This document shows positions 13,316 to 30,134 of a stretch of DNA of 35,690 nucleotides, one piece after another (the stretch's first letter is position 1; the number at the start of each line of letters is the position of its first letter). The stretch covers positions 1 through 35,690 of the forward strand of contig JACCTL010000002.1 of the NCBI GenBank assembly GCA_013812395.1. Reading direction: 5' to 3'. A program made the translations under genes and the position numbers. This DNA comes from Euzebyaceae bacterium. Lineage in GTDB: Bacteria; Actinomycetota; Nitriliruptoria; Euzebyales; Egibacteraceae. The notes under the pieces are model-generated. The model did no database searches and was not told where the DNA came from. It saw only the letters and a list, made by a program, of their open reading frames with translations.

Positions 13316-14607
13316 GTCCGCCTCACGCGCTTGGCCTTCGCGGCGCCTACCTGTATGGCGCCGGCCTTGATGGCGCCGACCTTACTGGCGTGGGCACTAC
13401 CGGCACCGGCCTGTATGGCGCTGGCCCCAGCGGCGCGGGGCTCGCCGGCGCGGGCGATCGCCAGCAGGATGCCCAGCCCGAGGGCGGTGACGACCAGTGA
13501 TGAGCCGCCGAAGCTCACCAGTGGCAGGGTGACCCCGGTGACCGGCAGCAGACCCACCACTGACCCGATGTTGATCACGGCCTGCAGCAGCAGCCAGCCG
13601 GTCAGCGAGACAGCCAGCAGCCGGCCGAACGGGTCGGGCGCGCGGCGAGCGGTGCGCAGCCCGAAGACCGCCAGCAGCACGAACAGCAACAGCACGCCGA
13701 GGGAGCCGACCAGGCCAAGCTCCTCGCCGATGATCGCGAAGATGTAGTCGGTGTGGGCGTTGGGGATGTACAGCCACTTGCCGCGGCCCTGGCCGAGCCC
13801 GGTGCCCGTCCAGCCTCCCGATCCCAGCGCCAGGTAGCCCTGCACCGTCTGGTAGCCGTAGTGCGCCGGGTCCGACATCGGATTCAGCCAGGCCATGAAC
13901 CGGCCACGGCGATAGTCCGAGGTGGCGATCCCCACCGCTGCCAGCACCCCCAGCAACGCCACCCCGGCACCGACGATGCGCACCGGCAGCCCTGCCGCGA
14001 CCAGCGTCACGCCGCCGATGCAGGCGATCAGCACAGCGGTCTCCAGGTCGGGTTCGAGCATGACGAGCAGGCCGACGAGCCCGAGGAGCGGGACGGCGGG
14101 CAGCAGCAGCGCGCGCAGGTCGCCTCGGCGCAGGACCCTCCAGCGGCGGGCCAGCACGTGCGCAAGATACAACGGCACCGCCAGCTTGAGCAGCTCGCTG
14201 GGCTGGAAGCGCAGCGGCCCCACGCCAAGCCAGCGGCGTGCGCCGTTGACGACGATCCCGACCCCGGGTATCGCCACCGCGGCCGCCGCCACCAGCGACA
14301 CGACCAGCAGCGGGATCGCCAGGTGGCGCCAGCGGCGGTAGTCACAACGGGCCGCGACCACCATCAGCGGCAGCCCGAGCAGGTTCCACAGCAGCTGTCT
14401 AGCGAAGATCCCGAAGGCGTTGCCACTCTCGGCGGTGGACGCGACAAACGACGCCGAGAACGTCATGATCAGCCCGAGCAACCACAGCACCGCGGTGGTG
14501 GCCACCAGTGCCCGGAACTCCAGGGTGCTCTCGCCGGCGACGGTGGCTCGCGTCCACCGCACCGCTTCCGTCCCACTCCAGCGCCTCCGCGCGACGTCAC
14601 TGGCCAT
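13312..14607 (-). CDS. ftsW: Lipid II flippase/glycosyltransferase FtsW (SEDS family)
   Basis: Polytopic SEDS protein: VVNGARRWLGVGPLRFQPSELLKLAVPLYLA, YIPNAHTDYIFAIIGEELGLVGSL, LPLVSFGGSSLVVTALGLGILL. Confidence 0.96.
   Translation of the reverse strand: MASDVARRRWSGTEAVRWTRATVAGESTLEFRALVATTAVLWLLGLIMTFSASFVASTAESGNAFGIFARQLLWNLLGLPLMVVAARCDYRRWRHLAIPLLVVSLVAAAAVAIPGVGIVVNGARRWLGVGPLRFQPSELLKLAVPLYLAHVLARRWRVLRRGDLRALLLPAVPLLGLVGLLVMLEPDLETAVLIACIGGVTLVAAGLPVRIVGAGVALLGVLAAVGIATSDYRRGRFMAWLNPMSDPAHYGYQTVQGYLALGSGGWTGTGLGQGRGKWLYIPNAHTDYIFAIIGEELGLVGSLGVLLLFVLLAVFGLRTARRAPDPFGRLLAVSLTGWLLLQAVINIGSVVGLLPVTGVTLPLVSFGGSSLVVTALGLGILLAIARAGEPRAAGASAIQAGAGSAHASKVGAIKAGAIQVGAAKAKRVRRT
13333..13452 (-). 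repeat. 15-bp periodic repeat (about 8 units) in the ftsW C-terminal tail
   Basis: Sense pentads RAGEP RAAGA SAIQA GAGSA HASKV GAIKA GAIQV GAAKA; the plus strand reads GLRGA YLYGA GLDGA DLTGV GTTGT GLYGA GPSGA GLAGA. Confidence 0.85.
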
Positions 14608-14666
14608 GGGAGCGCTCCCGCGCGACGTCAGTCGCCATCGCAGCGCCTCCGCGCGACGTTACCGGC
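14581..14666. repeat. 31-bp tandem repeat (two full units plus a partial) spanning the murD end and ftsW start
   Basis: gcgcctccgcgcgacgtcactggccatggga / gcgctcccgcgcgacgtcagtcgccatcgca / gcgcctccgcgcgacgttaccggct...; phase exactly 31 nt. Confidence 0.9.
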
Positions 14667-25829: not shown

Positions 25830-26719
25830 GTCTCTGGCGCTGCTTGCGGCCACGTCTCGGGCCCTATCGCTGGTGCTGCTTGCGGGCTAGGCGGGCTGAT
25901 CACCACGGTGCCGTCGACCAGTTGCAGCACCGCGCGCCGATCGGTGAACAGTGCCAGGGCCTCCGGTGGCAAACAGATGCGCCCGGCGGCGTCGATCACC
26001 GACAGCCGTCGCGACTCGGCGGTCTCGGCTTGCACCGCGCCGTGACGCAGGAACAGGGTGCGTGCGGCCACCGCCACGGCCTGCGGGTCGTGGGTCCCCA
26101 GCACGACGCCGATGCCGCGCCCCGCCAACGCCACCAGCACTTCCAGCAGCGCGCCACCGTTGGCGCTGTCCAGCTCAGCCGTCGGCTCGTCGGCTACCAG
26201 CAGCACCGGCTCACCGATGGCGGCCTGGGCGAATGCCAGTCGCTGCTGCTCGCCGCCCGACAACGTCGTGGGCAACGCGTCCTTACGCGCGCTCAGCCCG
26301 AGGTCGTCCAACAGCTCGTCGCCGGTGTCGTCGACGTCTTTGAGACGCGCGGCCAGCTGCAGATGCTCGCGCACGGTCAGATGCGCCACCAGGTTGTCGG
26401 ATGGCCGCTGGTACACGTAGCCGACCAGCCGCCGGCGGATGCCGCGTAGCCGACCGGTTGACAACCCGCTGATGTCGACACCGCCGACGCTCACGCTGCC
26501 GGCCGTCGGGCGGTCCAGTCCCGCCAGGATCCGCATCAGCGACGACTTGCCGCTACCCGAAGGACCCACGATCGCCGACACGGTTCCGGCCGGGAATACC
26601 GCGTCGACGCCCTTGAGCGCGTGCACCTCGCCGGTGGCCGTCCAGTAGATCTTCACCAGCGCGGTGCAGGTGGCAGCCGCAGCGGCCCGGCTAACCCTCG
26701 GCGGCTTAGCCCGCAGCAA
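25826..26719 (-). CDS. ABC transporter ATP-binding protein with C-terminal AbrB-like extension
   Basis: Walker A GPSGSGKSSLM, LSGGEQQRLAFAQA, LLVADEPTAELDS, GTHD; C-terminal LSVIDAAGRICLPPEALALFTDRRAVLQLVDGTVVISPP. Start uncertain (TTG 26719 or GTG 26656). Confidence 0.88.
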   Translation of the reverse strand: MLRAKPPRVSRAAAAATCTALVKIYWTATGEVHALKGVDAVFPAGTVSAIVGPSGSGKSSLMRILAGLDRPTAGSVSVGGVDISGLSTGRLRGIRRRLVGYVYQRPSDNLVAHLTVREHLQLAARLKDVDDTGDELLDDLGLSARKDALPTTLSGGEQQRLAFAQAAIGEPVLLVADEPTAELDSANGGALLEVLVALAGRGIGVVLGTHDPQAVAVAARTLFLRHGAVQAETAESRRLSVIDAAGRICLPPEALALFTDRRAVLQLVDGTVVISPPSPQAAPAIGPETWPQAAPET

Positions 26720-29414
26720 GGCGCAACACGTCCGCGACGTTGGTGCGATCGGCCGCACGCTGCACCAGCATCGCCCCGCACCACGCCAGCACCGGCAAGG
26801 CGGCAACCACCGCCAGCAGCAAGGAGGCGGGCACGGTGAACAGCGGAGCCGGCGGCACCTGCGGCAAGGGGTCAAGCCTGGTGTTGATCAGCCACGCCGC
26901 CGCCAGGGCCAGCAGGGTGCCCGATGTCAGCGCCGCGGCCAGCATCCCGGCCACCTCCACGGCCACGGCCGTCCGGTTAGCCCCGCGCGACAGGCCCATC
27001 CGCGAGCTGAGCGCATAGCTGACCTCGCGCTCGGCCTGTCGGGCTTGCAGGTACAGCAGCAGGCCGATGATCGCCAGCAGCGCCGCCGCCAGCCCCAGCG
27101 CCTGTAGGTAGCGGAACGTCCACCCCAGGCCAGCCAGCCCCGGTCCGCCGGCCACCTGTTGTGCGGTCAGGATCTGCGGCGGGTTGCTGAGCGTGAACCC
27201 CGACAGCGCCACGCTGTTCTCGTCGGTGACGCCGAACCCGTCGGCTTCCAGGGCCGCCACGATGTCGCCGGGGTCCCCCCGCAACCAGGTCTGCGGCTCG
27301 AACAGCAACGCCGCGCCGATGCTGGACTGCGAAGCGGCGTCCACCGCTTCGACGTAGCGCCGCGCGTCGACCACCAGCAGCGGGCGCCGCTCGGACGCGC
27401 CCGGGAAGGCCTGCGGGCGGGCGACCACCTGCAGGGGCACGCCGTAGTCGGCGTCACGCAGGGTCGGCTGGTCGGGGATGCCGCCACCGACGGCGAGCAC
27501 GGGCAGGCGGCCGCTGTCGGCCCGCAGGGTGGCCAGCAACTCGGGCAGCGGCCGGTCGGCGAAACGGTCGTCCCAGTTGACCGCCGCCGGCAAGGTGTCG
27601 GGATCCACCCCGAGGATGTTCACCTCGACGCGGCCGTCGAGGGTGGCCCGCTGGAACTGCGCGAGGGTGGTGGGGAACCGCCCGACGGCGGTGGGGATGG
27701 CGCCGGGGCGGACCTCGGCCGACACGTCGCTGCCCACCACGATCTGCGCCTTGGCCTGCACCGTGCGCTGGGAGGTGGCCACCAGCGTCGCCGCGTAGAC
27801 GCCGATGCCGACCGCCAGGCTGGAGGCCACCACCAGCAGCAGCGCCGCGCGCGAGGCCCCGGCCAGCTGCCGGGCGGCCAGATACAGCGAGGGTCGCCAG
27901 CCGTCGCCGGCGCGCCGCAGCCGCGGTAGCACTCGTCGCATGGCGCGACCGGCCAGGCCGGCGCAACCCGCGATGAACAGCAGCGGGAAGGCGAGCACCA
28001 GAGCGTCGATGCGCGGTGGCGCTCCCAGCTCGACGGCGACGTCCGAGCCCGCCACCACTTCGTAGTAGGACGCCGCTGCCAGCGCCAGCAGCACCGCCTC
28101 CCATGGCAGCCGCGCGGCCAGCCGCCTGCCCGGTGCGGCGGCAGCGCTGGCTTGCGCACGGCGCGCCGCGACGGGCGTCACCACGGCGAAGACCACGACG
28201 GCCAGCGCGGCGTTGCGGATCACCGCGCGGACCGCGCCGACCCGCACCGCGGCGTCCCCAGAGGCGCCCGGGCCGAGCAGATCGACCAGCCACACCGCCA
28301 TTGCCAACCCGGCGGCGGCACCGAGCAGCACCGGCAGCAGCGCCTCGACGCCGGCCCGCGCTCCCGTGGCCAAGGGTGTCTCACCGGCCGCCGTCAGCAC
28401 CTGGTGCTCGATGCGCCGGCGCTGGGCGGCGAAGGCCGCCGCGGCGGCCACGACCACGATGGCGACGGCACGGCCCGCCAGCGACAGCAGCGACACCGGC
28501 CCGCGCAGCACCGCGGCGGTCTCGTCGACCTCGCCGACGACAGCGGCGAGCACACTACGGGTCTCGGGTGGGCCGTAGGCGCTCAGATCGTCGAATGGCT
28601 GGCCCAGCTCGGTGCTGGGGTTGGCGATGTCGGTACCGATGCGGTCAAGCCGCGCCCGTGCCGCCCGCAGCTGCGGCAAGGTCAGGTCGGCGAACTCCAG
28701 CGGCGCCTGCCAGCGGAAGGACGCCGGCGGCAGCGTACGGCCGGCGGACAGGAACGCGTCCAGGTCGGCCAGCAGCATCGGCGGTGGCGGCGGCTCGAGT
28801 CCCTCGGTGTCGCGCGTGGTGAACAACGACCCCAACGGCTGCCAGTATTCGGTTAGCCGAGCCGAGCGCAGGTCGACGTAGATGCCGGCGACCGGAGCCT
28901 GGGCCTCTTCCTCACCAAAGCCCACCGTCACGGTGTCACCTGGCTCCAGGCGCAGCTGCTCGGCCACCGAGTCGGGCAGCCACACGCCCCGGGCGCCGGG
29001 CGCAGAGTCGATGACCTCGATGTGCTCGCCGAAACCGTCACGCGTCAGCATGCGCGCCCGCACCTGCTCACCGTTGGCCGAGGCGCCGAAGACCGACGCC
29101 AGACCGAACAGGGTGGGCTCAGCCAGGCGCCCCACCCCGGCGGTCGCTGCGCGCAGCGCCGCGTCCGCGGGCTGGAACGTCCGGCGGTCCGGGACTCCGG
29201 CGGTCTCCACGCTCAGCCCCCCCGCCTCCGGGGTCACCCCCTCCAGGGACAGCGTCACCGCCGCGTTGCCCGCCGAGGCCAAGAACAGCGGCGCCGACGC
29301 CGTGGCCAGCGCCAGCACCGCCGCGCCCGCCGCCACCGCCGCACCCAACGTCGGCAGCCGCAGCAGCCGCACGGGCGCCTTGGTCCACGCGGCGGTCGGC
29401 GGGCGCAGTCTCAT
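26706..29414 (-). CDS. FtsX-like ABC transporter permease (about 10 TM, two extracytoplasmic domains)
   Basis: 902 aa; one N-terminal TM, large soluble domain, central TM cluster, second soluble domain, three C-terminal TMs with ALGLAAALLAIIGLLLYLQARQAEREVSYALSSRMGLSR. GGAGG 8 nt before ATG 29414. Confidence 0.88.
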   Translation of the reverse strand: MRLRPPTAAWTKAPVRLLRLPTLGAAVAAGAAVLALATASAPLFLASAGNAAVTLSLEGVTPEAGGLSVETAGVPDRRTFQPADAALRAATAGVGRLAEPTLFGLASVFGASANGEQVRARMLTRDGFGEHIEVIDSAPGARGVWLPDSVAEQLRLEPGDTVTVGFGEEEAQAPVAGIYVDLRSARLTEYWQPLGSLFTTRDTEGLEPPPPPMLLADLDAFLSAGRTLPPASFRWQAPLEFADLTLPQLRAARARLDRIGTDIANPSTELGQPFDDLSAYGPPETRSVLAAVVGEVDETAAVLRGPVSLLSLAGRAVAIVVVAAAAAFAAQRRRIEHQVLTAAGETPLATGARAGVEALLPVLLGAAAGLAMAVWLVDLLGPGASGDAAVRVGAVRAVIRNAALAVVVFAVVTPVAARRAQASAAAAPGRRLAARLPWEAVLLALAAASYYEVVAGSDVAVELGAPPRIDALVLAFPLLFIAGCAGLAGRAMRRVLPRLRRAGDGWRPSLYLAARQLAGASRAALLLVVASSLAVGIGVYAATLVATSQRTVQAKAQIVVGSDVSAEVRPGAIPTAVGRFPTTLAQFQRATLDGRVEVNILGVDPDTLPAAVNWDDRFADRPLPELLATLRADSGRLPVLAVGGGIPDQPTLRDADYGVPLQVVARPQAFPGASERRPLLVVDARRYVEAVDAASQSSIGAALLFEPQTWLRGDPGDIVAALEADGFGVTDENSVALSGFTLSNPPQILTAQQVAGGPGLAGLGWTFRYLQALGLAAALLAIIGLLLYLQARQAEREVSYALSSRMGLSRGANRTAVAVEVAGMLAAALTSGTLLALAAAWLINTRLDPLPQVPPAPLFTVPASLLLAVVAALPVLAWCGAMLVQRAADRTNVADVLRLAAG

Positions 29415-29415
29415 A

Positions 29416-29504
29416 CAGAATCCCTCCGGGATGGGGGCCGGCTTCCGCCGACTGCAGAATCCCTCCGGGATGGGGGCCGGCTTCCGCCGACTGCAGAATC
29501 CCTC
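29416..29504 (-). repeat. 39-bp perfect tandem repeat (2 units plus 11 bp) between the TetR and permease genes
   Basis: cagaatccctccgggatgggggccggcttccgccgactg at 29416-29454 and 29455-29493, then cagaatccctc 29494-29504. Confidence 0.95.
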
Positions 29505-29507
29505 ACG

Positions 29508-30134
29508 TCACACCATCTCGACTCCGGCCAGCTCGTTGAGCGCGGAGCCCCAGATGAGCACGAGCGCGTCCACCGCATCGCTGCGCTCGTGTTCCTCTCC
29601 CAACACCGCCCAGCAGTAGGCGAAGTGTTCCACCATCGCCACCAGCGCGGAAGCCACGGTCAGGGCGGGCGGTCCACCCCGTCGCCCCGACGCCGCCACG
29701 GCCGCCGCCAGGTTGTCGGCGACGCGTCGCACGAACAGCGCGCGCGACTCCAGGTACAGGTCGGCGAAGCGGCGTTCCTCCCGCGAGGCTTGCAACCAAG
29801 TGCGCATCACGACACGGTCCTGGGCGTAGCGGTCGAGAAACCCGCCGATGATCCGCTCCAACGCCCCTCTGACGTCGTCGGCCTTCCACGGCGCAGAAGC
29901 TAGCGCCACGAAATCTCCCTGCGCGGTCCCCACGAGGTCGGCCAGCACCGCTGCCTTGTTCTCGTAGTAGGTGTAGAAGGTCCCGTGGCTCACCCCTGCC
30001 CGCATGACGATGTCCTCGACGCGCGTGGCCTGCCAACCGAGCTCGTCGAACGCCTCGCGGGCAGACTGGCGCAGGCGGGCGGCGGTGCGCGCCCCGCGCG
30101 ACAGGGCGGCCGGCCCTGTGTCGCCGTCGCTCAC
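29508..30134 (-). CDS. TetR/AcrR family transcriptional regulator
   Basis: RQSAREAFDELGWQATRVEDIVMRAGVSHGTFYTYYENKAAVLADLV: canonical TetR HTH. GTG 30134 start just after the oppF stop. Confidence 0.92.
   Translation of the reverse strand: MSDGDTGPAALSRGARTAARLRQSAREAFDELGWQATRVEDIVMRAGVSHGTFYTYYENKAAVLADLVGTAQGDFVALASAPWKADDVRGALERIIGGFLDRYAQDRVVMRTWLQASREERRFADLYLESRALFVRRVADNLAAAVAASGRRGGPPALTVASALVAMVEHFAYCWAVLGEEHERSDAVDALVLIWGSALNELAGVEMV

Follow-up and report, generated by a model that had tools for sequence, protein, structure and literature searches.

Results

The stretch of DNA analysed here (35,690 nt, hereafter the window) corresponds to contig C79 in a draft genome of 2.19 Mb, 71% complete and labelled G000, from a member of the Euzebyaceae (Actinomycetota, Nitriliruptoria). 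On its minus strand, a TetR/EthR-type regulator gene (29508..30132, start approximate) is followed by a gene for an FtsX-type permease of 902 aa (26706..29414, with its ATG at 29414-29412). Pfam matches TetR_N in the upstream gene and FtsX in the downstream one, and the shared strand gives the pair the appearance of an operon. The 39-bp perfect tandem repeat that the original prediction placed upstream of the permease was recovered by TRF at 29416-29504 (period 39, 2.3 copies, 100% match), where it has the top TRF score within the whole window. Two imperfect tandem arrays elsewhere in the window, at 990-1076 and 14579-14666 (periods 33 and 31), are at first sight unrelated.

Read on the minus strand, the repeat unit is CAGTCGGCGGAAGCCGGCCCCCATCCCGGAGGGATTCTG. 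Unit A, the gene-proximal full repeat (29416..29454), has its last base 1 nt before the permease ATG; unit B, the upstream full repeat (29455..29493), has the same sequence; and just past the TetR stop lies a partial third copy, GAGGGATTCTG, whose 11 nt (29494..29504) equal the 3' end of the unit. The TetR stop and the permease ATG are separated by 93 nt, and the array takes up 89 of these, so that the repeat fills this gap nearly, though not entirely as had been proposed. The TetR stop codon is in the same frame as the permease, and this frame remains open across the array, the first start in it being the permease ATG.

Both hairpins predicted for each unit were reproduced with the proposed stems and loops, as a single unit folded alone gave GTCGGC/GCCGGC closing a GGAA loop and ATCCC/GGGAT closing a GGA loop. 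In unit A, hairpin 1 (GTCGGC-GGAA-GCCGGC, with one G-U pair in its stem) lies at 29437..29452 and hairpin 2 (ATCCC-GGA-GGGAT) at 29420..29432, both on the minus strand. Hairpin 2 contains, on that strand, a GGAGG Shine-Dalgarno (SD) motif (29423..29427) placed 8 nt from the permease ATG, as originally described, and this last GGAGG is probably the SD of the permease; unit B carries its GGAGG with no start codon behind it. The proposed check by RNA folding gave a divided answer: the single unit forms both hairpins, but the whole 131-nt leader had no extra fold stability over shuffled sequence (z = +0.35). The cost of opening the SD was 5.2-6.2 kcal/mol with the element and 1.5-6.0 kcal/mol, mostly about 4, in etfA leaders lacking it; since these values overlap, they make no strong case for a switch. 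No Rfam match was found on the element (cmscan, E<=1).

A search of the unit against its own draft genome showed that the leader is not unique. About ten other sites hold diverged copies, and a BLAST search with the leader found such copies on contigs C36, C149, C122, C143, C168, C141 and C125. They define a family with units of 39-45 bp, in which a hairpin of variable sequence is followed by a near-constant CCCATCCCGGAGGGAT, itself a hairpin containing GGAGG; wherever the loop of hairpin 1 has 4 nt in the aligned copies, it reads GNNA. With up to two mismatches, the 16-base core CCCATCCCGGAGGGAT occurs at 12 places on nine contigs of this genome and its reversed pattern at none. In the comparison with relatives, for which gene calls in the draft genomes are ORF calls made in this analysis, the core pattern gave 9 matches each in G000 and its sister species G001 (0 for the reversed control) and 7 in G020, including a 4x45-bp array. 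Because the search seed contains the SD core, copies that retain this core are over-represented among those recognised. Tandem copies are also present elsewhere in G000 (2x42 on C36, 3x42 on C149 and 2x39 on C143), and with about 15-20 recognisable units in this 71% complete draft, copy number is low, unlike that of high-copy REPs. At a gene end on C125 (L008:1522-1613), a 2.2-copy, 41-bp tandem array has a unit resembling a very diverged element.

A covariance model of the element matched G000, G001, G012, G014 and G020 with E-values of 1e-4 to 1e-11, and its strong matches were confined to a few Euzebyaceae genera among 397 Actinomycetota genomes; the element was absent from the plasmid and phage collections. 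A single viral-contig match to an 18-mer core had neither hairpin 1 nor a nearby start and was discarded as chance, as were one-mismatch core matches outside the family, which occur at chance level and lack hairpin 1. In start-proximal copies, three pairs of hairpin 1 changed on both sides and 98.6% of cells were paired, a value as high being reached in 1 of 500 shuffles, whereas covariation of hairpin 1 was weak in window-type copies. The open-access literature held nothing relevant on palindromic repeats in Euzebya, and the element family is apparently undescribed so far.

At distances of 1-7 nt, same-strand copies precede the starts of etfA (G000, G001 and G014), etfB (G012), tuf (G000), nuoF (G020), sucC (G014) and ribBA (G020, core only), where the names etfA, etfB and nuoF were given from their sequences without a family search. 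Copies also stand directly before the start of the permease in both G000 and G001 and before that of an arginine-deiminase-type gene in G003, again on the same strand. On contig C36 of G000 and C174 of G001, the element occupies a convergent gap flanked by a LuxR-type gene (so labelled from its C-terminal sequence) and a fatty-acid desaturase gene. Inside a fatty-acid desaturase gene, at L002:2129-2196, the mycobacterial antisense sRNA ASdes of Rfam matched with 64 bits, probably reflecting conserved coding sequence, a real sRNA being unlikely.

In related genera, orthologous sites are frequently empty. Most Euzebyaceae etfA genes follow etfB after a short gap with an ordinary AGGAG, GGAGG or GAGG SD and no element, and the 4x45-bp array is missing from the nuoF orthologues. 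Only one further clear orthologue of the permease is preceded by a TetR gene, that of G017 (54% identity over the first 400 aa), where the two genes overlap as a TAGTG stop/start and the element is absent. Given these empty sites, the simplest account is that the occupied ones gained the element. In the sister genome G001, of the same genus, the equivalent locus lies on a 6,602-base contig and likewise carries two units. The leaders of G000 and G001 are 90% identical, the starts of the permease coding sequences 85% and their third codon positions 73%. Of the 39 positions, 6 differ between the two units of G001 and none between those of G000, a pattern consistent with re-duplication or homogenisation in G000 at a later time; the recent duplication that had been suggested fits as well. 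Before etfA in G000, the upstream copy has decayed and the ATG-adjacent copy is intact.

Insertions within conserved genes consist of single or tandem 38-42-bp units that keep the reading frame. In G001 (C176), three 42-bp units lie in sense orientation in the linker of an AAA+ ATPase, and in G000 (C168) the linker has one antisense unit; both species keep the frame, and nine related orthologues have no element there; the opposite orientations in sister species apparently reflect independent insertions. In the SMC gene of G000 (C149, L003:1479-1599), three in-frame 42-bp units lie in antisense orientation, past the hinge and ahead of the C-terminal SMC_N match, and the array in G001 (C34) is shorter.

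Discussion

The array at the TetR-permease junction is very probably a lineage-specific palindromic repeat of the Euzebyaceae, REP- or RPE-like in character, which spreads and amplifies in tandem and whose 3' half supplies an SD. Of the possibilities raised in the original prediction, the dispersed REP-like element is the one that agrees with the data, as related copies sit at many unrelated sites in this genome and in other Euzebyaceae.

From the distribution of the copies, we can propose how such an array might arise. Units, which would move as DNA, enter gene junctions, and also genes in frame, after which tandem copies are gained or lost. At the present locus, the array parts the TetR stop from the permease start, which overlap in the distant G017 orthologue. 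The next gene begins a few nt after GGAGGGAT, in which the 3' half ends, so an insertion at a stop/start junction would bring its own SD. The downstream gene would remain translatable and the insertion tolerated. The 3'-most unit, unit A, would then be the working ribosome-binding site of the permease, allowing translation to restart independently, and unit B would be a redundant tandem copy. Selection would retain the gene-proximal core and let upstream copies drift. Stop codons are few in the unit, whose period is often divisible by three, so that in-frame insertion into flexible protein regions could be tolerated. No transposase or target-site duplication was identified, and copies could therefore also come from recombination or template switching.

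Other explanations were weighed against this one. A cis-regulatory RNA, in which the SD is hidden in hairpin 2 while hairpin 1 responds to a ligand, a protein or temperature so as to coordinate translation, would account for the compensatory changes in start-proximal copies, the GNNA loops, the GGAGG within the loop and arm of hairpin 2, and an SD opening cost slightly higher than is usual for empty etfA leaders. As the primary nature of the element, whether as a switch or as the SD decoy also suggested, it is nevertheless unlikely: the entire leader folds no better than shuffles, the opening cost falls within the span of ordinary leaders, covariation in window-type copies is weak, Rfam has no match, the element is missing from most orthologous genes, and copies within genes or a convergent gap could not serve as leaders. 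A regulatory role for the element is possible on these sequence data, and the genes it precedes (etfA, etfB, nuoF, ribBA, sucC and tuf) are central and mostly energy- or flavin-related; that a mobile ribosome-binding hairpin was recruited for their common translational control, with tandem copy number tuning output, seems to us quite improbable. Palindromic units adjoining a TetR gene naturally suggest an operator array for that regulator. This is extremely unlikely, since the element also lies beside unrelated genes such as tuf, etfA, nuoF and SMC and in genomes with no match to the permease; moreover, the array sits past the TetR stop in an apparent same-strand operon, and no sigma-70-type promoter was found near it. 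A classical CsrA site presents GGA in an apical loop over the SD, and hairpin 2 does the same in the predicted single-unit fold, but PF02599 was not found in this genome (71% complete), while the E. coli, B. subtilis and T. maritima controls were positive, leaving binding by CsrA/RsmA barely conceivable.

The size of the element, its palindromes, and its intergenic and intragenic spread recall a classical REP mobilised in trans by a RAYT, or Y1 tyrosine transposase (PMC3733652). Such an origin is very doubtful: Y1_Tnp (PF01797) was absent from all element-bearing genomes searched, several of them incomplete drafts, and appeared only as a fragment in G019, with positive controls matched; nor was the GTAG/CGTC tag seen by eye at the unit ends of aligned copies. 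With neither tag nor RAYT found in this search, the Euzebyaceae element is not filed as a REP.

The likeness to REPs is otherwise considerable. REPs are short palindromes that are transcribed and sometimes intragenic, including in genes for DNA repair and DNA maintenance (PMC3733652), and like these 20-40-bp hairpins, the Euzebyaceae units are dispersed (39-45 bp, at about ten sites in one genome), cluster in tandem as in BIMEs, are plausibly transcribed and are in some cases intragenic, here in SMC. Many of the junction copies abut the downstream start, whereas for REPs the distance to the downstream gene varies. RPEs are palindromic repeats found between genes and in frame within conserved protein genes of Rickettsia (PMC10969869, PMC2229807), and the Euzebyaceae element is likewise both intergenic and in-frame intragenic, but RPEs are mostly about 105-150 bp, compared with 38-42 bp for the in-frame units here, and belong to an unrelated organism. 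The element also shares its small size, dispersal and hairpin folding with bacterial MITEs (ERIC, RUP, Correia/NEMIS), the small non-autonomous dispersed repeats that form hairpins (PMC2229807). It differs from these in that neither terminal inverted repeats of a known IS nor a target-site duplication was recognised in it.

Mycobacterial interspersed repetitive units (MIRUs), which are about 50-100 bp long, are larger than the two-hairpin, SD-supplying unit of about 40 bp described here. By description, the two are alike in being short, apparently mobile actinobacterial repeats at gene starts; MIRUs reportedly insert at start codons and spare downstream translation by an internal ORF coupled to the gene at -4 nt (PMC12548453). 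The position is comparable, as TetR and permease overlap in G017 where G000 and G001 have the array, and other copies lie 1-7 nt before starts. No internal ORF with a 4-nt overlap onto the permease start was found, the upstream stop being that of TetR. Judging from its SD, the Euzebyaceae element would thus spare downstream translation as MIRUs do by another route, supplying an SD instead of coupling an ORF.

In summary, a repeat of this kind, whether selfish or neutral, would encode a tolerated in-frame peptide and carry a ready-made SD, and this combination would explain its entry into the operon junctions of essential genes. Furthermore, the AAA+ linker, occupied in both orientations in sister species, offers a natural comparison for how a repeat may spread without a recognisable transposase.
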